Shown here piece by piece: positions 13,066 through 42,363 of a stretch of 64,000 nt of DNA. The stretch spans positions 310,001-374,000 of the forward strand of contig JAFDVQ010000005.1 in NCBI GenBank assembly GCA_018268915.1. The letters run 5' to 3'. The translations under genes and the position numbers were made by a program. Numbering within the stretch: the stretch's first letter is position 1; each line of letters opens with the position of its first letter. The notes under the pieces are model-generated. The model had not been told where the DNA came from, did no database searches, and saw only the letters and a list, made by a program, of their open reading frames with translations. This DNA comes from Acidobacteriota bacterium. Lineage in GTDB: Bacteria; Acidobacteriota; Terriglobia; Terriglobales; Acidobacteriaceae.

Positions 13066-13142
13066 GGCCCCGTAGCTCAGGTGGATAGAGCAGCAGTTTC
13101 CTAAACTGCGTGTCGGAAGTTCGAATCTTCCCGGGGTCACCA
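13066..13142 (+). tRNA. tRNA-Arg (anticodon CCT)
   Basis: 77 bases. Acceptor stem GGCCCCG (13066-13072) pairs with CGGGGTC (13132-13138, one G-T), discriminator A, and CCA is encoded. The D arm TAGCTCAGGTGGATAGAGCA, the anticodon stem-loop GCAGT-TTCCTAA-ACTGC with CCT, and the T arm with GTTCGAATC are all present. It reads AGG codons. Confidence 0.96.
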
Positions 13143-17101: not shown

Positions 17102-17103
17102 GG

Positions 17104-21162: not shown

Positions 21163-21967
21163 CGCAGATGCCTCCCCGACACCTTTGCTCATGACGTCGA
21201 AGATCAATTCCTGAGCCCACACACATGCCTCTTGGAAGAGTTCGCACGATTTAATCCGCTCTCGAGGAGCCAAATCGAGAAGGTACTCGCGGGTACCTTA
21301 CCTTCCAGCCGAAAATGCGGCTGCATGAAAAAGTGCTCGGCAATGTGTGGTGCACGATGAAACGACGATGCTGAATTGAGATGGCCAGTGGTGGTTCATG
21401 AGCCCTCTTTTTGATGCACCATCTTCACGGCGTCCTGAGCAAAGCTCAGGAATTGATCCATGCGTCTTTTTCACTATTGGCCATGATGTGCAGCTACGCG
21501 GGTTGACGAGTTGGAATCTTCTTACCCGCGTTCAAGATGGGAAACTTCGATCTCATTCTGGGCCTCAATAGCCTCGCTCCGCCGCGAATCTACCTCCGGC
21601 GGCCACCCACCTGGCGAATCTGATTAGGTCGAACCTTCTACTTAGCTATAGAGCTTCTTGGCGTCCTAAAGCGCGCTGAATCTGTACCTCAAGGGGTGCA
21701 GTTCGACTCGGTCGCCTGCAGCGTAGCCCTTCAGTTCGAGCTGTCAGGTGGGATCGAATCTTTCATATCCAGCTGCAATGCTTTGAGCTGCACGCTCAAA
21801 ATTGATCCTGTCATTCCTCTTTTTTTCCCATAGTGGTTTCTCGCGCTTTAAAGTTCGGCGTTCGTCACAAGCGCCCTTCGCATTTGAGGCTGATGCTGTA
21901 AACGGACATCCGCGGCCAACAGCCTAAGTCGGCATATCGGATGCAACCTCATTGTGATAGGAACGTC
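21163..21967. other. Long intergenic stretch with one perfect hairpin
   Basis: About 800 bases without a supported gene. It contains a perfect 8-bp inverted repeat with a 3-base loop, TCCTGAGC-AAA-GCTCAGGA (21433-21451), without a T-tract. The last part shows AGGA six bases before the ATG at 21968. It may contain promoters for both flanking genes, but none could be assigned. Confidence 0.45.
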
Positions 21968-23240: not shown

Positions 23241-26200
23241 TCAAATCTCGAAAATCTCACGTTCCTCGGTCGCCATGGGAATTGTGGAAGCCGAATCAGG
23301 GAGCGCTTGGCGCCTCGCCTGACATACAACTTCTGCAAGACGCTCGGGAGTTTGACCCTCGAAGATGTCGCGTAGCGAAATCGTCACTCCCAGCTGCTCG
23401 CGTATCCGAGCGATCATCATGGTTCCCATCAGAGAATGACCTCCCAGATTGAAGAAATTGTCTGATGGATCGACAGCCTCAACGCCAAGCAAGTCTCTCC
23501 ATATGTCGACGATGACGGTCAACTCATCGTGATTAAGGGGATTGACATTGCCACGAGGAGAGGTCATGGCCTCGACTGAAGTCGAACTCGCATACGATGC
23601 GAGATCGACTGTGCTTGTCAGGATTTGAGCGCCGCTCCATCCACCCAGCACTCGCCGTACAACCTCGATGCCTTCATCGTTTGTCATGGCACGAGACATT
23701 CTCTTGTCGTAGTACGATTCCAGGCCTTCAGGAATTTCTATATCTGCGTTCATCCCGACTTCGCGCCACGCATCGAACCCGATTGCAATCGCCGGAATCT
23801 TCAAGGAACGCCGACAATGCTCAGCGAAGCTGTTCTCAAACGAATTGGCTGCCGCATAGGCACTCTCGCCTGGCGCCGGGAGATAGGCACTGAACGATGA
23901 GCAGAGCAGCAGAAAATCAATGCTATTTCCCATCAGGAGCCCTGCAAGCACTCGTGATCCCGTCACCTTTGCTCTAAGAATCGCTCGAGCATCTTCTGTT
24001 GACTGCGATACGATTCTGCTTGCGCCCACAATTCCTGCAGCGTGAATCACTCCGTTGATTGGTCCGAATTCAGCTTGTGTCTTTTCAAATACCGACGCCA
24101 TGGCTCCCATGTCAGCGACATCAGCGGACATGAAAAGGACGCGTCCTCCAGTTTTCTCTAAATCCTGCATTCGGCGAATCTGGCGAGATACGCGATCCCC
24201 TTCTCCTCGCGCAGCGATCCATGACGCCCACTCTGTGCGATCGGGGAGAGCAGTGCGGCCTACCACCACTACCCGTGCATCGTGGCTCAAAAGTAGATGC
24301 CTGGCCAGAACGCTTCCTATCCCGCCCACACCACCTGTGATTAGATAAGTTCCGCCCCGACGAAATGGTGATGCAGCACTTGCTTTCAAAGGAGCGGGCA
24401 CCCACTCTTTCTGCCATCGCATGCCTCTGCGATAGGCCACGCGGAGACTCGAACCCACTGTAGAAAGTTCGTCCAGCAAGTGCTGTACCATACCGCCAAT
24501 ATCATCCACGGGAAAATCGACGTCGATGCAACGACATTCCGCACCACTAAGCTCAGCCTCGATCGCTGAGGCGAGGCCCGTCAGCTCACCATCTTCCGAA
24601 TCTGCGACTGACTCTCCGGCCACGCTTTCAGTCGAGGCGGTGACGAATTCAAATCTTCTCAGGTGACGAAGAAGAGGACCAGCAGCCTGAAGGATGGCGG
24701 TAATAAGTTCGAGTCGGGATCCCGACTCATCGTTCAACTCAGGTAGACATATGACCGCGCTTGGTCGCAATCCAAAATCGTTGAGCCCATGCCACATCAA
24801 TTCGAAGTCCGTTCTGCTCGACGGACTGACAACGGCCCCGTCCCCGTGCAGGACAAACTGTTCACCCTTTCTTACGCTGAAAACATTGTGGCCTTGCTTC
24901 TGGAGGGCCGAAATCATGGCATCTGTTAACTGGTCGCCACCGCCAATCACGATCCAGCACTCTAGCCCTCCATTTTGTGTCGGCAGAACGATGCTGGCCG
25001 GTGGCGTGCTCCGCCAACTCGGAGCATAAAACCACTTGGAGATATCGCCTCGCTTGGCGGAAAGATCGCTATCGGAAAAACGTGATAGCGGTTGTATTGG
25101 CGTCGATGCATCGGTATGGGCGACTGGTGGTTCGGTCGAATGGCGCTTCCGCTCGAATGGATAGGTCGGCAAAGCTATTCGACGCGGCGTTTCCTCCTGG
25201 TCAAGTTCATTCCAGCGAACGGACAAGCCGGATTCCCACGAGGTTGCCACAATGCGATGGAACGCTTCGACGTCAGAAATGTGTCGTTCCTCCGATCCCA
25301 AAGAAGGGACGAACAAGCTTTTCGAAAGCCTCTGACGCGCAAGTCCTATCAATGTTTCCCCGGGACCAACCTCAATCATCAATCTAGGTTCCTGGCCCAG
25401 TGCGTCGATGCAGTGGCTGAAGCGTACCCGCGACAGAATTTGATTCGCCCAATAATTCGGATCCATCGCTTCTGCCTTGGTGATCCAGGTTCCGGTGACA
25501 TTCGAAAGCCACGGAATTTTAGGTTCTTGAAGCTCCACTGCCGCAACCGCCCTGCGGAAGACCTTCGCCGCATCCGCCATCAGCGGAGTGTGAAACGCGT
25601 TCTTTGACGCGAGCCGGACCGTAGCGACTCGCTCAGATGCCATCCTGCGCTCTAGCTCTTCGATCGCCTCGACTCGCCCAGACGCAATCGAGACTTTTGG
25701 CCCATTCTCTGCCGCGATCCACGTGCCCTCGACGAGTCGTGCCATCAGGCCCTCCGGAGGAAGCATCACCGCCAGCATCCGACCTGCCGGTGTTTGGCCC
25801 ATGAGACGCCCACGCTGTGCTGAGAGAGCTATTGCATCTCGGAACGAGAACACGCCTGAGATGTACGCTGCACTGATCTCACCCAGGCTGTGACCGACCA
25901 AAATTGATGGCACTATCCCGATAGAACGGAGCCTTTCGGCAAGTGCGCATTCCACGAGCACAAGTGCCGGTTGTGCGATTTCCGTATCGCGCAACCGGTC
26001 GGCGGCTTCAACCGCATCCAGCTTTTCGACCAGGAATGGACCAAGATCGATTCCCTGCTCTCTTAAGAGATCGCAGCCTTCATCGATCATCTGACGAAAA
26101 GCGCGATCTTCACCGTAGAGCCCTCCGACCATCCCAGGGAATTGCTGACCTTGACCGGGAAACAGAAAGACGACGTCATTCTCGAGATTGCCCTCGAATA

Positions 26201-27803
26201 TTCGCTTCTTCGGCCGCTCGTTGAGAAGGTTGGAAGCGTCTCCGCAGCTAGATGCCACCACGGCTCGACGGAAGTTAAAAGCCCGGCGACCTCGCTGCAA
26301 CGTTGTGGAAACCTCTGCGGCGGAAATAGACTGAGCCGTACCGAGGTACTTCGAGAGTTGCTCGCATGCTGAATTCAGCGCTGCCGATGTCTTCGCCGAA
26401 ACTGGGAAAATACGCGGCTTTGTTGAGCCCGACTGGAGCCGAGCATACGTAGTCGGCGCACTACTCATCGTGACGTGAACATTGGTGCCGCCGATTCCGA
26501 AAGAGCTGATGCCGGCCCACCGTTCCGAGTCACCACCCCAGTCAATAGAGGACGAACTAATCTCAAACGGCGTGTTCTCGAGTCCGAGAACCGGATTTGG
26601 TCGCGTAAAGGTCGGTGTGGAAGGGATCAAGCCATGCTTCACTGCCAGTGCGGCTTTGATCAGCCCAGCAATTCCTGCGGCCGCATCGGCGTGCCCAATG
26701 TTAGCCTTCACTGCGCCCAGTCTTAGGGGATTATTTCGCTGACGTGCGCCGAAAATCTGCGCCAGGGCCGCGATCTCGATAGCGTCCCCTAATTCCGTTG
26801 CAGTACCGTGCGTTTCAACGTAGCCCACGCGAGTTGAATCAACGCCCGCCGCAGCAAGACTCGAGCGGATTACATCAGCCTGACCGTCTACGCTGGGAGC
26901 CGTATACCCTACCTTTGTTGCCCCATCGTTATTCCAGGCGGAGCCTCGGATAACCGCGATGATAGAGTCTCGATCGACAATAGCGTCTGACAACCGCTTC
27001 AGGACCACAGCTCCTGCTCCACGTCCAGGTACGGTCCCGCCAGAATGAATATCAAACGGACGACAGTATCCATCGGCAGACAAAATCATGCCGGGGATAT
27101 ACGAATAGCCGGTATTCTGCGGAAACGGGATCGAAACACCCCCGGCAATGGCCATCGAGCATTCCCGTTTCAAGAGACTGGAACATGCGAGGTGAACAGC
27201 AGCGAGCGATGTTGAGCATGCGGTCTGTACAGTTACGGCGGGCCCGCGCAGATTCAGCTTGTAAGCCACTCTGGTCGACAAGAAGTCTTTGTCGCTGGCC
27301 AGCATCAACTGGTAACCACCAGCATTCGCCAAAATAGACGGGTCAGCTAGCAGTCTAAGCACGTAGGTGTTCATTCCAGCGCCAGCAAAGACGCCTACCT
27401 GCTCACCGTCTCCGGTATGTCCCGCATCTTCCAGAGCTTCCCACGCGCACTCGAGAAATACCCTTTGCTGCGGATCGAGAATCTCCGCTTCCCGGCTGCT
27501 CAGGCCAAAAAAGTTCGCATCGAAGTTCTCTGCGTCCTCAAGAGTGTTCCCGCGTCGAACGTAGTTCGGATCATTGAGCTTGGCATCTTCGACTCCGGCA
27601 TCACGAAGTTTCTGCTCCTCAATGCTTGTGAGCAGGATGTCCCCAGCGACAAGGTGGTCCCAAAACTCCTGAGCGTTTCGTGACTGAGGGAAGCGAGCAC
27701 TCATTCCAATGATCGCGATGCCTTCTCCCCAAGCCTCCGGAGTAGATCTGATGCGCTCCGTGTCACGGACTCGTAAATTGTTCTCGTATTCAGAAGACAT
27801 CAC
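23241..27803 (-). CDS. Type I polyketide synthase module KS-AT-KR-ACP
   Basis: 1520 residues, one full cis-AT module. KS (about 25-455): Cys196 in TACSTS, His332 in ETHGTATELGD, His371 in KANIGHADAAAG. AT (about 543-830): FPGQGQQFPGM, Ser639 in GHSLGE; the specificity motif NAFH (735-738) is the malonyl-CoA form. Post-AT linker RRIALPTYPFERKR (about 874-887). KR (about 1150-1330): TGGVGGIG, Ser about 1302, Tyr1316, Asn1320; it has no LDD motif. ACP (about 1425-1490): Ser1457 in LGGHSLMG. No DH, ER or TE, so the unit is expected to add a beta-hydroxy C2 unit and hand on. The GTG at 27803 overlaps the upstream stop; ATG at 27800 is also possible. It is the last gene of the operon. Its AT may also serve the AT-less module in the upstream gene. 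Confidence 0.95.
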   Translation of the reverse strand: MMSSEYENNLRVRDTERIRSTPEAWGEGIAIIGMSARFPQSRNAQEFWDHLVAGDILLTSIEEQKLRDAGVEDAKLNDPNYVRRGNTLEDAENFDANFFGLSSREAEILDPQQRVFLECAWEALEDAGHTGDGEQVGVFAGAGMNTYVLRLLADPSILANAGGYQLMLASDKDFLSTRVAYKLNLRGPAVTVQTACSTSLAAVHLACSSLLKRECSMAIAGGVSIPFPQNTGYSYIPGMILSADGYCRPFDIHSGGTVPGRGAGAVVLKRLSDAIVDRDSIIAVIRGSAWNNDGATKVGYTAPSVDGQADVIRSSLAAAGVDSTRVGYVETHGTATELGDAIEIAALAQIFGARQRNNPLRLGAVKANIGHADAAAGIAGLIKAALAVKHGLIPSTPTFTRPNPVLGLENTPFEISSSSIDWGGDSERWAGISSFGIGGTNVHVTMSSAPTTYARLQSGSTKPRIFPVSAKTSAALNSACEQLSKYLGTAQSISAAEVSTTLQRGRRAFNFRRAVVASSCGDASNLLNERPKKRIFEGNLENDVVFLFPGQGQQFPGMVGGLYGEDRAFRQMIDEGCDLLREQGIDLGPFLVEKLDAVEAADRLRDTEIAQPALVLVECALAERLRSIGIVPSILVGHSLGEISAAYISGVFSFRDAIALSAQRGRLMGQTPAGRMLAVMLPPEGLMARLVEGTWIAAENGPKVSIASGRVEAIEELERRMASERVATVRLASKNAFHTPLMADAAKVFRRAVAAVELQEPKIPWLSNVTGTWITKAEAMDPNYWANQILSRVRFSHCIDALGQEPRLMIEVGPGETLIGLARQRLSKSLFVPSLGSEERHISDVEAFHRIVATSWESGLSVRWNELDQEETPRRIALPTYPFERKRHSTEPPVAHTDASTPIQPLSRFSDSDLSAKRGDISKWFYAPSWRSTPPASIVLPTQNGGLECWIVIGGGDQLTDAMISALQKQGHNVFSVRKGEQFVLHGDGAVVSPSSRTDFELMWHGLNDFGLRPSAVICLPELNDESGSRLELITAILQAAGPLLRHLRRFEFVTASTESVAGESVADSEDGELTGLASAIEAELSGAECRCIDVDFPVDDIGGMVQHLLDELSTVGSSLRVAYRRGMRWQKEWVPAPLKASAASPFRRGGTYLITGGVGGIGSVLARHLLLSHDARVVVVGRTALPDRTEWASWIAARGEGDRVSRQIRRMQDLEKTGGRVLFMSADVADMGAMASVFEKTQAEFGPINGVIHAAGIVGASRIVSQSTEDARAILRAKVTGSRVLAGLLMGNSIDFLLLCSSFSAYLPAPGESAYAAANSFENSFAEHCRRSLKIPAIAIGFDAWREVGMNADIEIPEGLESYYDKRMSRAMTNDEGIEVVRRVLGGWSGAQILTSTVDLASYASSTSVEAMTSPRGNVNPLNHDELTVIVDIWRDLLGVEAVDPSDNFFNLGGHSLMGTMMIARIREQLGVTISLRDIFEGQTPERLAEVVCQARRQALPDSASTIPMATEEREIFEI

Positions 27804-30800
27804 AAATCTGCTCCAATCGGTGCCGCAATCGAGGCAGTCTTGCTATCTAAGAAAGTCGCGAGCGTTGCAATTGTCGGATGACGGAATAGATCCACTACAG
27901 CGATATTGACTTGGAACTCACGCTTGAGCTGAGCATGCAGTTGGACAAGCAGCAGCGAATGTCCCCCAAGATCGAAGAAGTTCTCTCGGAGACCAGGCTT
28001 GTCCACGTGAAGGAGATGAGACCATATCTCGCTCACTCTCCGTTCGGTCTGGCTGCCTGGAGCAGCGACTTCTACAGCCGCCCTGGGAGATTTCTGTGGC
28101 AGCGGAAGTCGCTTACGATCGATCTTTCCATTAGGCGTTTGCGGAAATTCGTCGACTGGCATAAGAACCGACGGCACCATGTAATCCGGCAGGAAGCCGT
28201 AAAGCCACGATCTCAGCATGGCTGTGTCGCCGACACCATCCTCGAAGCGAATGTATGCGACCAGTTGCTTCTCGTTTTCTCGTTCCAAGAGAACAACCAG
28301 GGCCTGACGGACGGATGGGTGCCGCTCTATGGCAAGTTCAATTTCTCCAGCCTCAATCCTATGGCCGCGCAGCTTGATCTGGTGATCGGTTCGTCCAAGC
28401 AGTTGGATCTGTCCGTCGCTCAGGTATCGAGCCAAATCTCCGGTTCTGTAAAGTTTGCGCAATCCAGCCGAATCGAATGGATCGGACAGGAACCGCTGTG
28501 CCGTAAGTTCAGACCGCTTCCAATACCCGCGTGCCACCCCTAGACCGCCAATGAACAGCTCGCCAGTTACGCCAACTGGAACAGGCTGAAGCTCGTCGTC
28601 CAAAATGTGCATCTCCGTATTTGCGATCGGACGTCCAATCAGAATTGGATTTTCACCGCTCCTTACCCGGTGAACTGCTGACCAGATAGTTGTTTCGGTA
28701 GGACCATATAAGTTCCAAAGCTCCTTACCGCGGGCGACGAGACTCTCAGCGAGATCGGGACTCAATGCCTCTCCACCGCACCACATGCGGAGTGTCGTTC
28801 GGCCGGTCCAACCAGATTCGACCAGCATTCGCCAGGTAGAAGGAGTCGCTTGCAGCACAGTTGCGCCGGATGTATCCAAAAGATCCGCGAGAAGCTCCGG
28901 ATTTATCGCCTGTTCGCGCGATGCCAGCACAAGCTTTGCACCACACAGAAGAGGTCCAAAGATCTCCAGCCCTGCGATGTCGAACGAGATGGTAGTAACT
29001 GCAACGAGCGTATCGTCAGCTCTCAACCCAGGCTCTTTCATCATTGAGCCAAGTAGATTCACCAGGGCCTGATGATGAATTTCTGTTGCCTTCGGATTGC
29101 CGGTTGTTCCAGAGGTATAGATCAAATAGGCCCTGTCTGTCTCCACAACGTCGTCTGGGACCGCCTCAGAACTGCAGACGCCGGCTTCTTCAATCGGCAG
29201 AAGAACCGCACTTGTTGCTGGTATGTCGTTGAGCAGGTCGCGTTCAGTAAGAATGAGAGCGACCTGAGAATCAGACAACAAGAACTCAGTCCGTCGTGGC
29301 GGCATCGCCGGGTCGAGCGGGAGGTAGGCAGAGCCAGCCTTAAGAATTCCAATTAGACCGACTACCATCTGCATTCCGCGATTCATGTACAGTCCAACAA
29401 CAGACCCACGTCCCACACCACGGGTGCGGAGATCCGAAGCAATCCTGTCCGAGTGAGCGTCGAGTTCTCCATAGGTCAATGAGCGGTCGCCCATCTCCAG
29501 TGCTATCTTCGTGGGAGTCTCTTGAGCCTGCGCACGAAACCACGCTGAGACACTGGCATACGGCGGTAACGGTGCTTCTGTAGAATTCCAATCGTCTATG
29601 ACTTCGCGGCGCTCCGCTTCGCACAGCAGAGCCAAACGAGAGATCGGCAGGTCTGGCTCGCTGGAAGCGCGATCGAGGATTTGCATATAGGCCCGAAGCA
29701 TGCGCTGAATAGTCTCTTCATCGAATATGTCCGAATTAAATTCGAAACTGCAGCGAAAGTGACTTTCATACGGGTACACGTCTGCCGCTATATCGAATCT
29801 TGCCCAGGACCTCGTAAAATCCACCTGCTTCATCTCAAGTTCGCTGAAACGCATGTTCGGCATCGCACTGTTGTGCAACGAAAATAGAACTTGAAACAGA
29901 GGACTGCGATCGGTGCTCCGCTCGGGCTGCAAAACCTCTACCAGCTGATCGAAAGGCGTGCGCTGATGCTCAAAGGCCTCCAGTGTCACTGCGCGTACGC
30001 GTTGCAGCAATTCGACAAAACTCGGATTCCCCGTCAAATTCATTCGCAGAACGAGATTGTTGACAAAGAAACCGATAAGGCTTTCGAAGCCGCTCTTCAA
30101 GCGCCCCGCAGTTGGAGTTCCGATCAGAATATCCTCTTGGCGCGTGTAGCGTCGCAGCAAGACACTGAAAGCTGCGGAAAGCACCATGAAAAATGTTGAG
30201 TTGTTGGCCCGCGCCAGCTTTTGCAGTTTCTCTGTCAATTCAATACTCAGATCTACAAAGACGCGGCCTCCGCGAAATGTCTGCAGGGCTGGTCTGTTGC
30301 GATCAATTGGCAAAGCGAGTTGGGGCAACTCACCGCCAAGCTTTTCCTCCCAATACGCCAGATCGTCACTCGAAACTCGGTTCTCTTCTTCAGCCTCCCA
30401 GTAGACAAAGTCCCGAAACTGCAAAGCCAAAGGCGGGAGGGGGCAGCGTCCTCCTTCGATCAGCGCCTCATAAATCTGACCTAGTTCCTGTACGAGCAGG
30501 CTGATCGACCAGCCATCAGAGATGATGTGATGCATGACGAGCAGTGCCACATGCTCGTTCTCCCCGGTCTGGTATAGATGAACCCGAAACAGCAGTTCCT
30601 TATCCAGTACGAATGGACGCTGCGCCTCGGACATCATCGATTGATGAAGATCAGCTTCAGGACCGGCGAATGTCGATGACTTCAGCTCGTGGAAATCGAC
30701 CGCCCAGTCGCTTCCCGCCCCTACTAAGGCGTAAGGCATCCCTTCATGATCGCGAAAGTGCGTGCGCAACGACTCGTGTCTCATCAGAATCGTTCGCAAG

Positions 30801-33800
30801 GCTTCTTCGAACACACCGCGATTCAGAGGACCAAGCAATCGGAAACCGATGGATACGTTGTAGACGGGGTTCCCAGGATCCATGCGATCTAGAAACCAGA
30901 GCCGCCTTTGAGAACGCGACAACGGGAACTCCAAAGCAACAGGATTCTGCCTTTCCTCTTGAAGCTTCTCTGGTTCGCTCAGCAGCTTCAAGATCTCCTG
31001 CTTCTGGCTCGCCAGTTGGCTGCGAATCTCCGCATTCATCACTCCCTTAGGCGCGTCGCAGCTTAGCCGCCCTTGGTCGACCGAAAGCACTACACCTCTG
31101 CTTCGTAGATTCCTAAGCAGTTCGCTCGCAGTTACCTTCGCGTGGCTCGCTGACGGGTTGTCTTTACCGGTGTTTGTGGTGATCTGCCGGGCATCCTCGC
31201 GATTCAGAGATTGAGGAGTCCCCTCTTCATCGGATGCAATTGCCGGACTCTCAAACTTGTCTGCGGGCAGCAGTGCAGTGATTCTGCGCGTCAGCTCACC
31301 AATCGTCTCAGCGTCGAATGCGATGGTCGCGGAGAGCTTACCTTCGACTCCAAGAGCTTTCCCAAGTTCATTCCGAAGTTCTAGAGCGATCAGTGAGTCC
31401 ATGCCCAGCGCGCCGAGACGGTCTTCGTCACTGAGCTGCTCGCTGGGAACTTGCAATTGACACACCCTGCAAACCACTTGTCTGACGAGGGTGGCGACTG
31501 CCTCCGCTCGTCCACCTTGCACAAGACCTGATAAGTCGGCAACTGCAATCGGCTGCACTGGCGGCACTCGCACACCATGTTGGACGGAGTTCCGATTCTG
31601 GCTCAGTATGGTCTCCGAGCCCGATGAACTCGAATCACGTTTCGCGATCAGCACATGCTGCCCCATCTTTGACGCCGGAGAATCATTTGCAGGGAACGAC
31701 ATCGGGCTTTCAAACCCGTTTCTTAGCAAAACCTCGCACCAGTGCTGAGCGTTGAGGAGAGGGTTTTCGGTACGCTCGGAATCCTCGAAATGCTGCCATC
31801 CCTCGATCAACCCGGTCGTCATGTCGAAACAGACTTGGTGTTCGGTCGTTTCAATAAGCAACAGGAGTCCACCTGGTGCAAGCAGGCGATGGACCCGTTC
31901 CAGCGATCTTGGCAGATTGCGGGATGCATGCAGCACATTCGCAGCTAGCACTACATCGAAATAGCCAACAGGAATTCCTTGCTCCTCTGGCTCGCGATCC
32001 AGATCCAGGAGCGCATATCGAAGAAACGGAGTGTCCCTGAGACTCTGTCGCGCGCGGCGCAGAAACAGCTCCGAGACATCAGTGAACCAGTATTCCGCTT
32101 GCTCAGGCTGCAACACTGACGTCACAGCTGTGGTGGTGGCTCCGGTTCCCGCGCCCAGTTCGAGAATTCGCACATTTCGCTTCCGGCCCCATCCCTCAAC
32201 TGCAAGCCGGATGGCATTCGCTGCGATCGCATTGCAGTAACGCGCTTCTGAGCTTTCCCGATACAAAGCATTTGCCAGATCGAAGGATCCGTCCGGGAAG
32301 AGAGTCACAAGTGCACTGGCACGACCCGTGAGCACATCTTGAAGCAGATCTCCGCAGCGGCGGAGATAGACAAGCATGCCCGGATCCCGTCTCAGAGCTT
32401 CCTCGACAGCGGGCCACAGAGACTCGACCGAAGTTTCACGGAATCCCTCGGACGGCTCGTACTTTTCGTTCGTTTCAAGTAGTGCGCCCGTTGCCGCAAG
32501 CCGTCGCAGCCATCTCGAGACGATCTGGCCGTAGATCTTCTGGAAACCGCAGTTGCGCATCACGTCTTCGCCACTTACTGGGCTCCCATTTGCAAATGCG
32601 CCTGCGTTAACCAGGACGTTCTGAGCGTATGCAAGAGTCAGCTTTTCAAGTGCAGCCCATCGCTCGGGGTAGCCTCTCGGGTCCCAACCCAGTGGGCCTC
32701 TTTGACTTTCGCGAGCAGCTTCAGAACAGACCAGTTGCCAGACCTGCTCGCGCTCAAGCCGCCGCTGTGTTTCTGGTAAAGCTCCTAACCAGAACCGCTC
32801 CCGGTGAAATGGATAAAGGGGCAGGGCGACTCGCCTTGAGGGTTCCTCCCACGCCGACAGCATTCCGCCTTTGAGAAAGGCGGCCGACTTCTGATCCAGC
32901 GAGCCACAACCGGCCTGACTCGCCGTTTCATCGTTCCCGGTCTTCACTGCGTCGACCACACCCCCGCCAAGCCACTGCTTCAGATGATTGGCGGCTGTAA
33001 GTGCATCGGGTGCCGTTACCGTTAATCTCTCTCTGAGAATCGCGCGCGTTTCGATAGCGCTTCTACAGATGTCCCCAAACTCCGCATCCGTTTTTCGAAG
33101 GAACGAGACATACAAACTTGCCAGGCTTCGAAGTGCTTCAGGATCAGCTGCGGATATGCACAGCAACTTCTCTACCGATGACTTTTCCGGACCCGCCGCG
33201 GTCTCCGATGGCCGGAAGGAACCCACGATCACGTGCGCATTGGTGCCACTGAAGCCAAACGAGCTTACCGCAGCATAATGTCCATCCCTCTCATCCGGCC
33301 ATGGCGTCAGTGTTTGTGGAATCTCAATCGGCCATTTCTTCCAGTCGATGCGGGAATTCGGAGATGAGCAATGAAGATGAGGAGCTATCCCGCGGCCGCC
33401 CTGCAACATCAGAACTGCCTTGATGAACCCCGTCAGACCTGCTGCTCCCTCGCCATGGCCTAGATTCGTCTTGACGGATCCAACACGAAGCGGGTGATGG
33501 GCGCTGCGGCCTCTTCCGTAGACGTTGCCGATCGACAGGAACTCCATCGGATCGCCGAGTGGCGTACCTGTTCCATGCGCCTCAACATAACTCACCTCGC
33601 TCGCATTCAGATCTGCATCTGACAACGCGGACAGCATGACCTTCTGCTGGGCGCGGACATTTGGAGCTGTGAGTCGCGGGCTTCGTCCGTCCTGATTTAC
33701 TGCCGTCCCGCAAACAATGGCCTGGATGGGATCTCCATCGCGGCGTGCATCGTCCAGTCGCTTAAGCACAACTACGCAGCATGCCTCACCGCGCACGTAC

Positions 33801-34519: not shown

Positions 34520-35274
34520 TACAGGCCTCCACTGATCGGTATAGCTGCTAGCAAGGTTTGGCGCACATGCGAGACCAGAAGCTCACACGCGTCTTGCAGG
34601 TAGTGATGGCCACCGTCCAGAAAGAAAACCTCGAATGTGCTGGACGTCTGTTCCCGCCAAGCCTCCACCTGCGGGCGAGTCAAAGTTGCGTCGGATCCCC
34701 CGGCAAACGCAGTTATCGGGCAGTCGAGCGGATCTGCCTCGCGCCGCTGATAGCCTTCCAGCAATTGAATGTCCGCGCGCAAGGTGGGAAGAAAGCTTGC
34801 GAGGAATTCTTTCTCAGCCAGAACGGGTGCTGGAATGCCGCCATAGCGCGTCTGTACGGCATGTATCAGCTCCTGGTCTTCCAGATGTCCAATTGGCGGC
34901 AGTATCGGTTCACATTGAGGAGCGCCCGCTGCCGACACAAACAGATGCATCGCACTCTGGCCGCTTTGTCTGCGTAGCTCGTGAAGCGTTTCAAATGCGA
35001 GAATGCTGCCCCAGCTGTTGCCAAAGAACGAAAACGGCTTGCCTCGATCCAGGGAGTCGAGTACAGAGCGCGATAGATCTCGCACTAGAGCCTCCATGCT
35101 CTGATACGGTGCATCATGAAATCGTGACTCTCTTCCCGGCAATTCAACCGATATCGCTTCAATCTCCGGCAGCAGTCGCTCCCTCCACCCACGGAAGGCA
35201 GAGGGGCCGCTCCCCGCATGGGGCAAGCAGTAAAGCTGAAGCACTGAGCCACGGGATGGAGCGCGTCTTAGCAT
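34519..35274 (-). CDS. Type II (editing) thioesterase of the NRPS/PKS cluster
   Basis: About 251 residues, alpha/beta hydrolase of the stand-alone TEII family. It frees carrier proteins that hold wrong or stalled acyl groups. Seen: LYCLPHAGSGPSAFRGW, the nucleophile elbow GNSWGS (Ser87), an Asp region DPLDCPITAFAGGSD, and the catalytic His in DGGHHYLQ. ATG at 35274 is chosen because it begins just before the conserved LYCLPHAG block and lies 19 bases after the permease stop. A GTG at 35358 overlapping the permease is the alternative. It is coupled to the following PKS-NRPS gene by a one-base overlap. GNSWG instead of the more common GHSMG is notable but still has Ser. Confidence 0.9.
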   Translation of the reverse strand: MLRRAPSRGSVLQLYCLPHAGSGPSAFRGWRERLLPEIEAISVELPGRESRFHDAPYQSMEALVRDLSRSVLDSLDRGKPFSFFGNSWGSILAFETLHELRRQSGQSAMHLFVSAAGAPQCEPILPPIGHLEDQELIHAVQTRYGGIPAPVLAEKEFLASFLPTLRADIQLLEGYQRREADPLDCPITAFAGGSDATLTRPQVEAWREQTSSTFEVFFLDGGHHYLQDACELLVSHVRQTLLAAIPISGGL

Positions 35275-35293
35275 ATTGTTGACGAACCGACGA

Positions 35294-36109
35294 TCAGTAC
35301 TGAGCCAGTGTGCCTTCCCTTCTTCCCCGCCGAACGGTCGCTGAGAAAATTGCGGCACTCACCGGAAGAAGAATTAACGCCATCACGGCCAACGTTGTCA
35401 GAGGCTGAACAACCGCTCTGAAAGATGCTCCATTCAGCATCGTGAGTCTGAGCGCGTTCAGCGAATAGGTGACAGGTATCAGAGATGAGAGCCTTTGCAT
35501 CCACATGGGCATAACGTCAATGGGAAAGTAGGCCCCGCCAAGAATACTTCCTAACCCGCCGAGAATCCACGTAATAGGATCGCCCTTCTTCAACCATACG
35601 ATTGCGGAAGCCGAGAGCACCCCGAACGCAACGAAAATGGAAATCGAAAGAAGGAGGACCAGCAGCGTTAAAGGCAAGTTCATGTGGCTGAGGTCTACCC
35701 CGAATATGAGGACGCCGCCCGTGAGAATTAGCAGTAACTGTAATGCTCCTGAGAGCAAGCTGTAGATGGATGAGAACAGCACGATGGGGACGCAACCAGT
35801 TTGGCTGCAGAGCATGGCCTCAAGACACCCTGTGACCTGCGCTGTACGAATCGATTCCGAGAACATCCTGAGCATCAGATCGAAATAGCGGGCAAACGCT
35901 ACGCCTATCAGCGCGAAAGGGAAATAGCGCAGGTGTGACGCACTGAGCGAAGCCGACGCAGTCGAGGGAATCAACCGGCCAACGAAATGCAGAATCACCA
36001 GCAGCATCAGGGACTCGACCAGGCCCATCATGAAGGCTGCCTGGTACCCTGATTCGATACAGAAGTCTCGCTTGACAAAGGCGAAAGCCTTGCGGAGAAG
36101 TGGCATCAT
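35294..36109 (-). CDS. ABC-2 type exporter permease of the cluster
   Basis: 271 residues, about six membrane helices (for example LVESLMLLVILHFVGRLI, LLSGALQLLLILTGGVLIFG, LPLTLLVLLLSISIFVAFGVL, TTLAVMALILLPVSAAIF). ABC-2 permeases work as dimers with an ATPase to push polysaccharides, lipids, drugs or natural products outward. ATG-ATG start; it overlaps the upstream ATPase stop by ATGA, so the two are translated together. Its position inside the operon suggests export of the metabolite or self-protection. Substrate is inferred from context only. Confidence 0.88.
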   Translation of the reverse strand: MMPLLRKAFAFVKRDFCIESGYQAAFMMGLVESLMLLVILHFVGRLIPSTASASLSASHLRYFPFALIGVAFARYFDLMLRMFSESIRTAQVTGCLEAMLCSQTGCVPIVLFSSIYSLLSGALQLLLILTGGVLIFGVDLSHMNLPLTLLVLLLSISIFVAFGVLSASAIVWLKKGDPITWILGGLGSILGGAYFPIDVMPMWMQRLSSLIPVTYSLNALRLTMLNGASFRAVVQPLTTLAVMALILLPVSAAIFSATVRRGRREGTLAQY

Positions 36110-36951
36110 ACGTGACTCCGGCCAGACAGATGCAGGCGATAGTAGTCAAGGACCGAGAGCCCTTCTTCCCTGAGCTTGTTGATCGATTCACCGCACTTGA
36201 TCTTTCCTTCGGCAACGATCAGCACCTTATTGCATAGCAAGGAGGCCTCTTCCGGCCTGTGGGTGGCGATCAGCAACGTCTTTTTTGAATTGCGATGAAG
36301 TGTAGATAAGATGAGTTCGACCATCTCATCGCACGCCAGCGGATCCAGAGCTCGCGTCGGCTCGTCGAGGACCAGAACATCCGGCTCCGCAATCAATACC
36401 CTGGCCAATGCCAGCCGTTGCTTCATTCCCGAGCTGTAGGTGGATACGGACCTGTTCTTGTCATTCTGCAGACCGACCAAATCCAGCAGAAATTCGACTC
36501 GCTCCCGCAGTTCGCGTCCGCATAGATTGTCGAGAGCTCCGAAGAACTCTAGATTTTGTGCGCCAGAGAGCCGCCAGAAGAAGCTTCGCTCTTCGTTGAA
36601 TACAAAACCAACCGATCTCCTGATTTCGACGCCTTCACTCAAAGTGCTGTGGCCATTCACAACCACGCTTCCCTCGGAAGGTAGAAGAATTCCTCCAATT
36701 AGCTTCAGCAGAGTCGTCTTCCCTGCGCCGTTTGGTCCCATCACAGCGATGCGGTCGCCGGGATACACTCGCAGATTCACATCAGAAAGTGCGGTAAAAA
36801 CACGGCGTCTCTGTAATGGGGCAAGTACCCATTCGCGGTAGCGTTTCGGAACTGGGAAGCGCATTGTGACATCATGAACGTCAATCAGAGCAGGTTCACT
36901 GCCAGCCTGATCCGACGTGAGAACTGGCTTGAAGAATTCGGCGGCAATCAT
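36106..36951 (-). CDS. ABC transporter ATPase of the cluster exporter
   Basis: 281 residues. Walker A GPNGAGKTT, signature STYSSGMKQRLALARVL, Walker B DVLVLDEPT and H-loop LIATHRPEE are all present. After an N-terminal extension, the nucleotide domain carries DVTMRFPVPKRYREWVLAP before the first strand, like the ATPases paired with ABC-2 permeases that export polysaccharides or antibiotics. The ATG at 36951 overlaps the NRPS stop codon (ATGA). A longer frame to 37014 lies inside the NRPS gene and is unlikely. It is expected to pair with the permease encoded next. Confidence 0.93.
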   Translation of the reverse strand: MIAAEFFKPVLTSDQAGSEPALIDVHDVTMRFPVPKRYREWVLAPLQRRRVFTALSDVNLRVYPGDRIAVMGPNGAGKTTLLKLIGGILLPSEGSVVVNGHSTLSEGVEIRRSVGFVFNEERSFFWRLSGAQNLEFFGALDNLCGRELRERVEFLLDLVGLQNDKNRSVSTYSSGMKQRLALARVLIAEPDVLVLDEPTRALDPLACDEMVELILSTLHRNSKKTLLIATHRPEEASLLCNKVLIVAEGKIKCGESINKLREEGLSVLDYYRLHLSGRSHV

Positions 36952-39900
36952 CCGTTTCTTGCCTCCGCCGTATCCAATTCCTTCGTTCGTATTTGCTGCG
37001 CCTCGTCCATCCATGAGCGCATCATGTGCGCCACTTCTCGGCCGTGTTCGATCAGCATCGTCTCATGGGACCCGGGAATTGCATGAACATCTACATCCGC
37101 CTGAGAAAATCCACTCCAACCAAAATCCTTATTGACACGAAGGTCCTCTTTATTTCCGATCAGCTTGATGCAACCTGACCAAGGCTCAGGCCTGTGTCTG
37201 TAAAGCAACCGGCAGTAGTTCGCTCTATGTTGATGAAATCGGTCGTTCTCGCTGACTAAAGAGGCGCTCGCGATACCTGCCTTGCGAATCGCCAGTTCGC
37301 GTATTGCCCGGACTCGTTCGGTCCCTTGCGCTCGCACAATCTCCCACAGAACTTCCGCTACATGCTTGACTCTCGAACCGCAGCTGTATAGTTCCCGCCG
37401 GATGATATTGCGCAGCGTCGGGCGCTCGGTATCGAGCAGTACAACCAGCTGCACTTTTTCGCCCTCTTGCTCCAAAATCCTCGCAATCTCCAGTACCGCT
37501 ACACCTTCGACACAGTTGCCACCCAGGAAGTAGGGGCCTCTAGGCTGTATCACTCGGAGTTCCGCCAGATAGTCGCGTGCAATCGCCTCTACGCTTGCAT
37601 AATCCTCACCCTGTCCATCCATCCAGCGCGGCTGAAACCCGAATACCGGCTGATCATCACCGAGGTGGGGGACGAGATGAGACAGGAAAAGCAGCGGCCC
37701 GCCCGGGTCGTGATATCCGGCCAGGAAGAATAATGGCGCCCTCTCCCCCAGGGGTTGAACGGGCACCACGCGCTTCCATTGCGGCGCCTCGCAGGTATAT
37801 ATGAAGTTTCGCGTGGAAGATTCGAAGTGGAGGTGGCTCGCCAGTCCGGCGATCGTCGGATCTGCAAAAATCGCTTGCAAAGGCAGTTCCGTGTTTAGCT
37901 CTGCTCGAATACGAGAAGCGACTCGCGCCGCGAGGAGAGAATGCCCTCCTAGTTCGAAAAAATTGGCACTCTTCTCTATCCGGTCGACTTGCAGCACCTC
38001 GCGCCAGATCGCTTCTAGCTTGCGTTCAACGTAATCGGTTGGCGCGCTGAATATCTCATCATCTGTCCTGTCTTCAGATGAGTCTTGCTTTAAGCCTTGA
38101 ACTGCCTTCGGCGGAAGGTTCAATAGCGCTTTTCTATCGATTTTGCCGTTTGGCGTCTTGGGAAAGCTATCGAGCTCTACGTACTCCGCAGGAATCATGA
38201 TCTCCGGCAAAACAGATCGAAGACTTCTGCGCAAATCAGCCGGCGTCGCTGAAGCTCCCTCTAGCGGCCTCCAATACGCAATCAGGTATTTTTCGCCAGC
38301 TCTATCCTCTCGGACGATTGCAATCGCCTGCGCAACGGCTGGATGACCTTCGAGCGCGGTCTGAATCTCTTCGAGTTCGATTCGGAATCCACGAAGTTTT
38401 ACCTGCTGATCCAATCTGGAGACAAATTCGAGGCTTCCGTCTGGCAATCGACGCACCAGATCTCCGGTCCGATATAAGCGCGCTTCAAGATTCTGATGGC
38501 GTCTAAGGACAAACTTCTCTGAAGTCAAATCAGCCTGTTTTCGATAGCCGCGCGCCAGACCCGCTCCACCTATGAAGAGTTCTCCCGTTTGGCCGGGCAG
38601 CGAGGGTTTGCCGGTTTCGTCAAGAACATAGGTTTGTGTATTGGCGATAGGATGTCCGATCGGTATGCGTTCAACCGGCGCTTTCATCCGCTGCACGGTA
38701 GACCAGATCGTTGTCTCAGTCGGACCATAGAGGTTCCACAGTTCAGCACCGGTTGACAGTAGCTGTTCGGCGAGTTGTCGCGGAAGCGCCTCGCCTCCGC
38801 ACAGAACCTTCAGACCCGGCTTTCCCTTCCAACCGGATTCCAGAAGCAGACGCCATGTTGCAGGCGTGGCTTGCATAATCGTGATGTCGAATTCACTGAT
38901 CAATCGAGCCAGAGCATTGGCGTCGGTGAGTGCCGCACCGGGCGCGATCACTAACTGAGCGCCGCTTACTAGCGGCAGGAATAGTTCCAGTCCGGAAATG
39001 TCAAATGACAGCGTCGTTACGGCAAGTAAGCGATCTGTGACACCTATTCCCGGTTCTCTTTGCATGGACGCCAGCAGATTGACTAGCGACCGATGCTGGA
39101 TTTCAACTCCCTTCGGCGTTCCGGTTGAACCCGACGTGAACATCAGATACGCAAGATCTTCCGAATTTGCCGGCGCACTCGGTGAAGTACTGAGATCCGA
39201 CGTATGCCCCTTCTCTAGCTTGTCAAGGCAGATGAGTGACGGAACGTTGTCAGGTATGCGATCGAGCAGTGAACTCTCTGTGATTATTGCGGCCGGTTCG
39301 CTATCTTGAAGGATGTGCGCAAGCCGCCTCGCCGGAAAGGTCGGATCCAGCGGAACGTAGGCTGCGCCTGCCATCCATGTAGCCAGCGGAGCGACAACCA
39401 GATCGATCGTCCGGCTCAGGCACAAGGCCACGAGATCACCCGGTCTGACCCCCGATTCCCGTAGTCGGCGCGCAAGAAATCTCGAACGATCACATAACTC
39501 CCTATATGTAAGTTGCTCGGGCCCGCACATTACCGCAACCTTTTCGGGAGTCGATTCCGACTGGAGTCTTACCCAGTCCGGCACGCATTGAACAGGCAAT
39601 TCCAGCGAAATACCGCTCTGACTCCGGAACCAATCCTTTTCCTGCTCGGGGCTCATCGCTGCTAGTTGCCCCAATGGCTCGTCTGGCATGCTTGCCATCT
39701 GGGTCGCGAGAGTCTGATAACAACCAGAGAAGCATCTTATAGTCTCTGGATCAAAGAGTGCGCCGTCATACTGTATCGATCCATGGAACTTGCCATCCGC
39801 CTCCCACATGTACAGTGTCATGTCGTTCGCGGTGCCCCCACTCTCAACCTCATAGTCTTCTGCCCGCGGAGTGTTCAGCAAAATGAACGCATGTTGGAAA

Positions 39901-41144
39901 AGAAGAGAGCGGCTGGGATCGCGATTCGGCAGAAGTTCTTTCACTAGAAACGCGAAAGGAACGTCGGCATTGCACAGAGAGTCCATTACCGTAGACCGGA
40001 CGCGTCTCACTAACTCTCTCGAGGTATTTTCAGGCGACACCTCCGTTCGTAGCAGTTGCGTGTTGATGAAGCATCCAATCAGCTTTTCAAGATGAGTTGT
40101 GACGCGTGTCGATACGGGTGTGCCTACAACGATGTCTTTTTCACCGCTGTATCGGCTCAGCAACGCCGTGAAAACCGCGAGCAGCACCATAAAGGGAGTC
40201 GCCGCACAATCTCGGCCAAGTTGTTTCAGCGCTTCAGAACACGCCGTGTCCAGTTCGAACGCGAATAGCCGCGCCTCGTAGGCGCTGGAAGGACTTCGCG
40301 GATGATCGAGCGGAAGATCAATCAGCGTCGAAGCGCCTTTTAGCTTCTCCTTCCAGAATCCAATTTGCCCACCCATTGGGGGCGAACTTACTCGTTTTCT
40401 TTCCCACAGGGCATAGTCAGCGTATTGAACGGGAAGTTCCTGCCCATCTGGTGCCTCTCCCGCCAACAACAGCACATAGGTGGAACGAAGCTCCTTGAAG
40501 AAGACTCCGAGTGACCATCCGTCGCATACGATGTGGTGCACAGCAAAGACAACAATGGAGTTCTCTGCTGAAAGCCGAATAAGAGCCACACGGAATAGTT
40601 GTCCGGAGCCAAAATCGAATGGGCGCGCTCCAAACCTCTGTATCGTTGCTTTGGCCTCTTTCTCGCGCTCGTCATCTTTCCTTTCACTCAGGTCGAATAG
40701 CTCCAGGCATGGGTTCGAATCTTCGAGCACCTCCTGAGCAGGAACTCCCGCTACTTCGGTGAACCGCGTACGCAGACTCTCATGCTTGTGGACCAGCGCT
40801 CGTAAAGCCTGTTCCAGGACTTCAGAATTCACCCTCGCTTGAATCCGCGCCCAGGCTGTGATGTTGTAAGCGGTACTATTCGGATTTAGTTTCTGCGCAA
40901 ACCAGAACCCTTCCTGCGCAAAAGACAGAGGAACAGGTTTTCCTGCAGTCGGACGACGGCCAATTCGTTGCGGATTGCTCGCGGAAAGAAGTGCCCGAAT
41001 AAGCTCCGACTTGTGTTCGGCCAGGCTCTCTTCAATTTCCTTGGTGATGCGGCCGGGAGGTGCGCTGCAGCGCAAGCGGTCTCCCTCGACACTCACGTGA
41101 ATGTCAAGCGTGCGCAACTCAGAGATCAGCCGTTCGGCGCTCAC
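36948..41144 (-). CDS. Nonribosomal peptide synthetase TubC dock-C-A-PCP-TE with a Cys thioesterase
   Basis: 1398 residues from a GTG at 41144 whose product begins as TubC_N docking domains do (SAERLISELRTLDI). The frame is open to an ATG at 41309, but that adds 55 residues without family features. Order: TubC_N (1-52), condensation (HHIVCDG 203-209), adenylation (about 515-1010; MFTSGSTGTPKG, NLYGPTETT), PCP (Ser1069 in LGGHSL), thioesterase (about 1125-1375). The pocket residues, read by eye against PheA, give DILQLGLIWK, which I recall as a glycine code. The thioesterase nucleophile site is GGNCVEG: Cys1211 replaces Ser, with Asp1238 (LLDTERP) and His1360 (GSHETML) completing the triad. 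It is first in the operon but should act last in assembly, because only it carries a releasing domain. Confidence 0.94.
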   Translation of the reverse strand: MSAERLISELRTLDIHVSVEGDRLRCSAPPGRITKEIEESLAEHKSELIRALLSASNPQRIGRRPTAGKPVPLSFAQEGFWFAQKLNPNSTAYNITAWARIQARVNSEVLEQALRALVHKHESLRTRFTEVAGVPAQEVLEDSNPCLELFDLSERKDDEREKEAKATIQRFGARPFDFGSGQLFRVALIRLSAENSIVVFAVHHIVCDGWSLGVFFKELRSTYVLLLAGEAPDGQELPVQYADYALWERKRVSSPPMGGQIGFWKEKLKGASTLIDLPLDHPRSPSSAYEARLFAFELDTACSEALKQLGRDCAATPFMVLLAVFTALLSRYSGEKDIVVGTPVSTRVTTHLEKLIGCFINTQLLRTEVSPENTSRELVRRVRSTVMDSLCNADVPFAFLVKELLPNRDPSRSLLFQHAFILLNTPRAEDYEVESGGTANDMTLYMWEADGKFHGSIQYDGALFDPETIRCFSGCYQTLATQMASMPDEPLGQLAAMSPEQEKDWFRSQSGISLELPVQCVPDWVRLQSESTPEKVAVMCGPEQLTYRELCDRSRFLARRLRESGVRPGDLVALCLSRTIDLVVAPLATWMAGAAYVPLDPTFPARRLAHILQDSEPAAIITESSLLDRIPDNVPSLICLDKLEKGHTSDLSTSPSAPANSEDLAYLMFTSGSTGTPKGVEIQHRSLVNLLASMQREPGIGVTDRLLAVTTLSFDISGLELFLPLVSGAQLVIAPGAALTDANALARLISEFDITIMQATPATWRLLLESGWKGKPGLKVLCGGEALPRQLAEQLLSTGAELWNLYGPTETTIWSTVQRMKAPVERIPIGHPIANTQTYVLDETGKPSLPGQTGELFIGGAGLARGYRKQADLTSEKFVLRRHQNLEARLYRTGDLVRRLPDGSLEFVSRLDQQVKLRGFRIELEEIQTALEGHPAVAQAIAIVREDRAGEKYLIAYWRPLEGASATPADLRRSLRSVLPEIMIPAEYVELDSFPKTPNGKIDRKALLNLPPKAVQGLKQDSSEDRTDDEIFSAPTDYVERKLEAIWREVLQVDRIEKSANFFELGGHSLLAARVASRIRAELNTELPLQAIFADPTIAGLASHLHFESSTRNFIYTCEAPQWKRVVPVQPLGERAPLFFLAGYHDPGGPLLFLSHLVPHLGDDQPVFGFQPRWMDGQGEDYASVEAIARDYLAELRVIQPRGPYFLGGNCVEGVAVLEIARILEQEGEKVQLVVLLDTERPTLRNIIRRELYSCGSRVKHVAEVLWEIVRAQGTERVRAIRELAIRKAGIASASLVSENDRFHQHRANYCRLLYRHRPEPWSGCIKLIGNKEDLRVNKDFGWSGFSQADVDVHAIPGSHETMLIEHGREVAHMMRSWMDEAQQIRTKELDTAEARNG

Positions 41145-41448
41145 AGGCAACACTATTATGCGATTTCTAATTACCGGTGGAAGATCGGTGTAAACAACTG
41201 CTTCGATCTCGAAACGAGATCCCGACCGAGCAAAATCCTCATACAGCAAACGTGCGAGGCGATAGCGCACTCTCCTCGAACCCTTGCCAGCCGAAACACA
41301 ACAACGCACATCGTACCAAGGACAGGCTATAAATACCCTTACACTCGGGGGCTACAACAGATACCCATTTAGTAATGAAAATTGGTAGTAATGTAACGTT
41401 ACCTCGTTTTGCAGCAGTCAGGTCCCGACAATTAGAGAAAGCGCGAGA
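41145..41448. promoter_or_regulatory. Divergent control region between the NRPS operon and the phosphopantetheinyl transferase
   Basis: Visibly more AT-rich than its surroundings. It holds a perfect palindrome GTAACGTTAC (41393-41402) and a direct repeat AGTAATG (41371-41377 and 41387-41393). On the minus strand CATAAT (41155-41160) lies ten bases before the preferred GTG of the NRPS, so a -10 box with a nearly leaderless transcript is possible. No regulator gene is beside it. All assignments are tentative. Confidence 0.35.
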
Positions 41449-41529
41449 GTGTCAGAAGTCGTTCTTCGCACAAGTCCCTTCAAGTTTCTGGACAATTCTT
41501 GTTTACGACTTGAAATACTATGTCTCTAC

Positions 41530-42363
41530 ATGCTGGCGCAGCAAGATACTCAAAAGCACTCTGGCGATCTGCTCGGCCTTTGGTTCGCCTATACGAAAGA
41601 TGTGCCGGCCACATTTACCGATCAAGAATGCTCACGGATACTTGCTCCTGATGAAGTTGCGCGTTCGAAAACATTCAGGTTCGAGAAGGATCGTCGCACC
41701 TACCTGGCTTCCCGCCTTCTTCTCCGCAATGCCCTTTCTCATCATCATCCGACTCAACCGAAAGATTGGCAGTTCCGCACGAGCATTCACGGAAAGCCAG
41801 CCTTATACCCAGACTGCAATCTTCGCTTCAACCTCTCACACTCCACGGAGTTAGTAGCTTGTCTTATTGGAAGCGTCAGCCAAGTTGGCGTCGATGTTGA
41901 GTCGCTTAGTCGAGGTCCACAAATCGTTAGCATCTCTAGCGAACTACTGTCAGCACAGGAACTAGCGCAATTTGACATCCTGCCAAATCAGGAAAGATAC
42001 GATCGCGGTTTATCACTCTGGACGTTGAAGGAATCTTACGTGAAGGCTCGAGGGCTTGGTTTCTCTCTGCCGATAAGGAAGATTTCGTTCCTCTTCCAAA
42101 GTCAAGAGGCTTTCCAAATGAATCTCGACTCCTCCATGAACGACGAGCCCTCAAAGTGGCAGTTTTGCCTCCTCAATTTCGCGGATCATCGTGTCGCAAT
42201 CGCCGTCGAAGCCATTCATCAACCAAGGCTCCAGGTATGCGAGGTCCGTCTCGCTGTCGAACCGCTCATAGGCCATACTGCAGGCGAGAGCACCTGCATT
42301 GATCAGTTCCGGTTTGCGTCAGTCAGCATTATCCCAATCGCCACGAATCACGCGCATCCTTGA
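41530..42363 (+). CDS. Sfp-type 4'-phosphopantetheinyl transferase
   Basis: About 277 residues. It transfers the phosphopantetheine arm from coenzyme A to the Ser of ACP and PCP domains, activating the neighbouring megasynthases. Seen: KTFRFEKDRRTYLASRLLLRNAL, HGKPAL, FNLSHSTELVACLI, the Mg-binding GVDVESL and WTLKESYVKARGLGF. These are the full set of Sfp motifs, and the length fits apart from a C-terminal extension of about 50 residues. I take the ATG at 41530; a GTG at 41449 would add 27 residues. Neither start has a strong ribosome binding site. It is divergent from the NRPS operon and its codon use is as AT-tolerant as the cluster. Confidence 0.92.
   Translation: MLAQQDTQKHSGDLLGLWFAYTKDVPATFTDQECSRILAPDEVARSKTFRFEKDRRTYLASRLLLRNALSHHHPTQPKDWQFRTSIHGKPALYPDCNLRFNLSHSTELVACLIGSVSQVGVDVESLSRGPQIVSISSELLSAQELAQFDILPNQERYDRGLSLWTLKESYVKARGLGFSLPIRKISFLFQSQEAFQMNLDSSMNDEPSKWQFCLLNFADHRVAIAVEAIHQPRLQVCEVRLAVEPLIGHTAGESTCIDQFRFASVSIIPIATNHAHP

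Follow-up and report, generated by a model that had tools for sequence, protein, structure and literature searches.

The closest described systems each resemble one part of the operon reported here. The glycine module of DhbF, from the bacillibactin pathway, contains an A domain with the code DILQVGLIWK (PMC4169593), and other glycine-activating A domains carry the code DILQLGMIWK (PMC12283262). AB3403, an NRPS from Acinetobacter (PDB 4zxh), has a C-A-PCP-TE layout and a TE with a Cys nucleophile, and its catalytic Asp is reported in the usual position, unlike that of SulM and ObiF, two Cys TEs that make strained rings (PMC11298585, PMC6668435), besides which AB3403 is described as the remaining Cys TE of known structure; the product of AB3403 itself was described as uncharacterised. 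CurJ, from the curacin pathway, carries a C-methyltransferase embedded in a PKS module. Additionally, docking between a short linear motif and a TubC_N domain has been described (PMC13324335). Here, we analyzed a window of 64,000 nucleotides (the whole stretch of DNA considered) from an Acidobacteriota genome, in which a preliminary description had placed a six-gene hybrid NRPS/PKS operon with a divergent Sfp-type activator.

Layout and integrity of the operon

The six leftward ORFs and the rightward PPTase are long open frames with strong Pfam matches (Table 1), and the E values of the KS, C and A domains (1e-71 to 1e-107, Pfam) are far beyond chance. The same gene order is kept in orthologous clusters of two other genomes, G004 and G540, and the gene set of the preliminary description is therefore confirmed by ORFs, domains and orthologous gene order. 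That description also had the genes overlapping or nearly so. Short overlaps of 1-4 bp stay, but where the ABC and TEII frames seem to overlap adjacent genes more widely, this is probably an artefact of the start codons.

Table 1. Features of the operon, in window coordinates
Feature	Position	Strand	Evidence and remarks
PKS KS-AT-KR-ACP	23241..27803	-	Pfam and sequence
C-terminal acidic tail (...EEREIFEI) of the PKS, candidate short linear motif for TubC_N docking on the terminal NRPS	23244..23276	-	conserved in orthologues
PKS-NRPS KS-(no AT)-cMT-ACP-TubC_N-C-A-PCP	27800..34519	-	Pfam
A domain of the PKS-NRPS, code DILQMCLIW(K), Gly-like	28124..29539	-	anchor-based extraction; Lys517 assumed
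Fusion/deletion junction, P0001 residues ~1176-1205	30907..30994	-	sliding identity; C-domain trees
TubC_N (beta-hairpin docking) domain, now internal between ACP and C	30974..31123	-	PF18563 1.8e-15
C-methyltransferase domain	31640..32749	-	CurJ C-MT 1.1e-54, DisA 5e-36; also PsoF, AprA MT2
Residual KS-AT linker and post-AT linker (LPLYPFHRERFW) where the AT is absent	32780..33097	-	no PF00698; alignment against AT-bearing PKS
Type II (editing) thioesterase (TEII), GNSWG motif	ORF 34519..35358; 34519..35274 from likely start	-	PF00975 1.6e-36; likely start ATG 35274 (start analysis)
ABC-2 type permease	35294..36109	-	PF01061 1.3e-8
ABC exporter ATPase, DrrA-like	ORF 36106..37014; 36106..36951 from likely start	-	PF00005 3.5e-32; TIGR01188 drrA match below cut-off; most likely start ATG 36951, 4-bp overlap with the NRPS stop, as in the orthologue (start analysis)
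NRPS TubC_N-C-A-PCP-TE, terminal subunit	36948..41309	-	Pfam; start probably near 41153-41144, not 41309 (start analysis)
Terminal TE domain	37014..37676	-	PF00975; nucleophile motif GGNCVEG
A domain of the terminal NRPS, code DILQVCLIW(K)	38142..39563	-	anchor-based extraction; Lys517 assumed
Sfp-type 4'-phosphopantetheinyl transferase (PPTase), divergent	41449..42363	+	PF01648 4e-16, PF22624 1e-10; VGVD and WTLKESYVK motifs (by eye); likely start ATG 41530

Inactivating mutations, which had been named beforehand as the sign of a dead operon, did not appear. No stop codon or frameshift interrupts any of the six leftward genes or the PPTase gene, and the catalytic residues are present (KS Cys, KR Ser/Tyr, PCP Ser, TEII Ser, the PPTase motifs and the TE nucleophile, which is Cys and not Ser). 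Every gene is under purifying selection, with pairwise dN/dS of ~0.06-0.20 in eight gene comparisons where dS was measurable, although the window pairs are near synonymous saturation, so that the values are approximate and a recent relaxation cannot be dated from them. By Pfam, the operon has the KS, ACP, C, A and PCP modules, TE release and Sfp-type PPTase of a hybrid modular NRPS/type I PKS system, and the genome has no condensation domains other than those of the operon. The set had been called complete: exporter, type II TE and PPTase are indeed there and the operon looks complete and is apparently functional, but one PKS module has no AT and a loading module is missing. Similarly, "PKS-NRPS" is apt for a hybrid protein, but its PKS half consists of KS, MT and ACP without an AT. 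Overall, the operon quite probably encodes a hybrid PKS/NRPS assembly line that is intact, consists of three subunits and comes with an exporter, an editing TE and an activating PPTase of its own.

The slot between a TonB-receptor gene and rlmN (window 10517-42512) is variable. In G008 (L103, L107, L108), colinear flanks enclose a different island, whose boundaries are an intact tRNA-Arg(CCT) and a 46-bp exact repeat of the 3' end of that tRNA; the tRNA-Arg(CCT) of the window (13066-13142) runs the other way, and a second copy of it was not found. The TonB-dependent receptor-like protein encoded at 18826-21273, which had a counterpart (38% identity) in only one of the 12 genus members examined, is apparently part of the variable slot, and a molybdopterin-dependent dehydrogenase operon adjoins the cluster at 13605-17760; it encodes FAD, MoCo and [2Fe-2S] subunits, of which the [2Fe-2S] one bears a TAT signal. 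Two candidates for self-resistance were rejected. The rlmN gene adjoining the PPTase, considered as a Cfr-like second methyltransferase, is single-copy and is itself an RlmN equivalog, and the ABC-F gene that neighbours the cluster in G004 is Uup/EttA-like, with scores below cut-offs.

A small family of clusters and the fusion junction

The operon is not an orphan but the shortest member found of a small cluster family within one bacterial family. Its nearest relatives are eight-gene orthologous clusters in G004, of the same genus, and G540, of another genus (loci L011+L012 and L052+L053), with 59-76% protein identity to the window for all but the PPTase. These clusters share, in the same order, the divergent PPTase (49% in G004 and 48% in G540; overall range 45-49%), the NRPS-TE (60% at the same place in G004; also found in G540 and G550), the ABC ATPase (73%), the ABC-2 permease (75-76% in G004, G540 and G550), the TEII (63%), the KS-MT-ACP, the second C-A-PCP and the KS-AT-KR-ACP (63% in G004 and G540). 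However, they contain an extra KS-ACP gene (743 aa in G004) and an extra leading C-A-PCP module, the A code of which is not Gly-like, and their KS-MT-ACP is a separate protein.

Four longer clusters from other members of the family (G550, G138, G640 and G668), which lie on partial contigs except for that of G550, have the same AT-less KS-MT-ACP (50-55% identity) and a Gly-like A domain. The first three also encode a KS-AT-KR-ACP with an EEFEI-like tail, and G550 the NRPS-TE and ABC pair as well. They differ from the window in having further KS modules upstream, which contain DH/ER/KR or AT, in separate docking domains and in a single or tandem C before the A domain. The G550 cluster comprises KS-AT-ACP, KS-ACP, KS-DH-ER-KR-ACP, KS-MT-ACP, a KS-KR-ACP module, KS-AT-KR-ACP, TubC-C, A-PCP and KS-AT-KR-ACP, with the permease, ATPase and NRPS-TE on the opposite strand. 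In G640 (L085 12786-17507; C36:42785-47506), TubC_N is followed by two tandem C domains with no A-PCP between them and then by A-PCP; the second tandem C reads HHIISDA instead of HHxxxDG.

Such clusters are rare in the genomes covered. Among 80 genus members, only the window and G004 have a close orthologue of 27800-34519. A 398-genome family-wide sample yielded seven genomes, window included, with orthologues that cover most of the KS-MT-ACP, and 297 phylum genomes yielded only the window and G138; standalone KS-MT-ACP orthologues occur in six genomes, and orthologues of the KS-AT-KR-ACP at no less than 48% identity in eight. A scan of genome contigs with the NRPS as query returned only a distant Gemmatimonadota fragment, and a plasmid search only PKSs below 60% identity, the best listed being at 33-43%.

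Compared with the nearest relatives, the window has neither the KS-ACP gene nor the leading C-A-PCP module, and its KS-MT-ACP is joined in one protein to the TubC_N that follows. Residues ~1131-1185 of 27800-34519 follow the TubC_N of the dimodular NRPS of G004/G540 (50-63% in the core), and from ~residue 1190 the protein follows the second C domain of those NRPSs, not the first (53-90% over most windows), which resolves the junction to ~15-30 residues. A former boundary between the KS-MT-ACP and TubC_N subunits thus appears to have been turned into a covalent fusion. All other KS-MT-ACP relatives are standalone and are followed by a KS gene where the contig continues; therefore, the fusion and the KS-ACP loss would belong to the window lineage. 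Moreover, in G640 it is the second tandem C that groups with the C of the window and with the second C of G004/G540 (100/98), so the window lineage most likely lost the first C. A1-PCP1 may have been lost in the window as well, or A1-PCP1 by itself may have been gained in G004/G540. An insertion of the whole extra NRPS module in G004/G540, also considered, is disfavoured by the tandem C domains of G640. In trees of C, A, KS-MT and PKS sequences, which have midpoint roots only, the window is sister to G004+G540, a pair with strong support for the C domains (97-100) and modest support for the A domain and PKS (82-85). G004 shares the genus of the window and G540 does not, yet the two group together, which suggests transfer or patchy loss.

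The AT-less module, the order of the subunits and chain release

No PF00698 match was obtained in the PKS half of 27800-34519, and alignment against the AT-bearing PKS placed the gap between the residual linkers (Table 1). The best PDB match to its MT is the C-methyltransferase of CurJ; both are embedded in a PKS module and the operon MT is predicted to perform CurJ-like C-methylation, whereas the operon module lacks an AT. An AT-less elongating module, a trait of trans-AT PKSs, was thus found in one of the two PKS modules. The genome contains three ATs, one each in the PKS 23241-27803, an unrelated PKS encoded on C8 and a C19 protein of FabD size; no dedicated free-standing AT encoded with the cluster was found in this inventory, and no other modular PKS able to act upstream was found in the genome except the unrelated locus on C8. 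This second PKS locus (L015 4733-14538) encodes a carbamoyltransferase, an A-PCP and a KS-AT-KR-DH-ACP-TE, and many genus members have A-PCP and ~2100-aa proteins similar to it. With no AT in the module and no modular PKS upstream apart from that locus, the module would depend on malonate delivered in trans, and both malonyl supply and priming would have to rely on FabD or on the AT of 23241-27803; a literature search for precedents of AT-less or FabD supply found none that matched. The AT of 23241-27803 is malonyl-like (GHSLG and NAFH, the latter close to the malonyl-type HAFH), and the catalytic S/Y/N of its KR are present. The chain most likely starts at the KS of 27800-34519, as judged from what is absent in an assembly that is 97% complete.

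A missing AT and loading module, in the shortest family member found, could also mean that the operon is a decaying remnant of a longer line, stripped of its loading modules, one AT, the KS-ACP gene and a C-A-PCP module and making no product. However, the AT is equally absent from the KS-MT-ACP of G004, G540, G550, G138, G640 and G668, and since it is missing in all six relatives, its absence is ancestral to the group. The catalytic motifs are intact by eye, and dN/dS is low on all genes, though this near-saturated comparison spans the time before and after the fusion. We therefore consider decay very unlikely and retain the reading of an intact operon.

Three subunits can be ordered in more than one way. 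Both NRPS-bearing proteins carry TubC_N (PF18563), and the acidic-hydrophobic tail of the PKS is conserved in eight orthologues including the window (EEREIFEI to DREEFSF). An N-terminal coiled-coil docking helix is found on the long-form KS-MT-ACP and is missing in the window, G004 and G540, and in G550, G138, G640, G004 and G540 the PKS gene comes after the C-A-PCP gene without exception. Together, the terminal TE, the candidate docking tail of the PKS that would face TubC_N, the docking loss and the gene order point to 27800-34519 acting first, 23241-27803 second and 36948-41309 last. The DNA order, with the NRPS-TE gene first, is not colinear with this proposal and counts against it. Alternatively, the PKS could act first, with its KS-AT-KR-ACP as the starter module, its chain passing to the KS-MT-ACP of the PKS-NRPS and from there to the NRPS-TE; many assembly lines have a cis-AT first module, the AT-less module would obtain an upstream donor, and the PKS N-terminus has no clear coiled-coil docking domain either. 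Nevertheless, the conserved tail would be expected to face an NRPS that bears TubC_N, 27800-34519 begins directly with a KS, its KS-MT-ACP having lost, with the rest of the short clade, the N-terminal docking domain of the long forms, and the gene order of all five clusters is against it. We thus give the PKS-first order little credence and favour the order that begins with the PKS-NRPS.

If Lys517 is assumed, the two A-domain codes match DILQVGLIWK at eight or nine of ten positions, and position 301 differs: both codes have Cys where the cited Gly codes have Gly. For the NRPS-TE, this exchange (G>C) is the only difference from the code of the DhbF glycine module, which works in another pathway with another starter. 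Both A domains are predicted to activate glycine; another small residue is possible given the Cys at position 301.

The TE nucleophile (Cys at ~residue 1266, ~37512-37514) is kept in alignments of the window, G004, G540 and G550, and the Asp of LLDT and the His of SHET are conserved. The domain aligns to the Cys TE of AB3403, whose operon is unrelated to that of the window. In our alignment, no conserved Asp was found after beta7, where SulM and ObiF have theirs, and the conserved Asp is that of LLDT. A strained-ring-forming TE, suggested by the Cys nucleophile, was set aside on this Asp position. Iterative use of the modules, giving an oligomer or a larger chain than four modules suggest, with a TE that cyclises or oligomerises, would agree with the shared Cys, given the rings made by SulM and ObiF, and with the flexible module number among related clusters. 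However, the LLDT Asp sits as in AB3403, leaving strained-ring formation unsupported, and there is no positive sign of iteration, which we regard as unlikely compared with single use of each module.

A putative product and what the family may tell

After analyzing the domain order and chemistry, we provide a putative mechanism for the operon. The KS-cMT-ACP-C-A-PCP protein (27800-34519) would initiate the chain, its AT-less module being charged with malonate in trans by the PKS AT or FabD. Its KS would condense a small or fatty acyl starter, primed directly from CoA or ACP, the CurJ-like MT would methylate the alpha carbon, and the same protein would add a predicted glycine. The KS-AT-KR-ACP would extend with malonate and reduce, giving a 4-amino-3-hydroxybutyryl unit, after which the C-A-PCP-TE would add a second predicted glycine and its Cys-nucleophile TE would release the chain for export by the ABC-2 pair. 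We infer that the product would be an (alpha-methyl-beta-ketoacyl)-4-amino-3-hydroxybutyryl-Gly, as a free acid or a ring, and that an acetyl starter would give C11H18N2O6 ([M+H]+ ~275.12); no product named for the operon was found in the literature searched. Taken together, we tentatively propose, as a possible rather than a probable account, that a self-priming AT-less KS-cMT module, lacking a loading module and upstream docking and fed with malonate by the AT of another protein or by FabD, would start a new alpha-methyl-beta-ketoacyl-GABOB-Gly family, with an interface replaced by a fusion, release by a Cys TE and sister clusters that would make longer products of this kind.

The hybrid NRPS/PKS kind is already known; the interest of this locus lies in its natural size series, its mapped fusion and its AT-less first module without a loading module. 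Few assembly lines from the Acidobacteriota group have been tied to products, and this operon, which holds a PPTase, an editing TE and an exporter within 19 kb, offers a practical one to express heterologously. The conserved first module, which has neither AT nor docking domain, raises a testable question of how a chain is primed without a loading domain. The graded series from the window through G004/G540 to G550 and the others, with its mapped TubC_N/C junction, is a natural case of module loss or gain, and the docking interface turned into a fusion can guide NRPS/PKS engineering.
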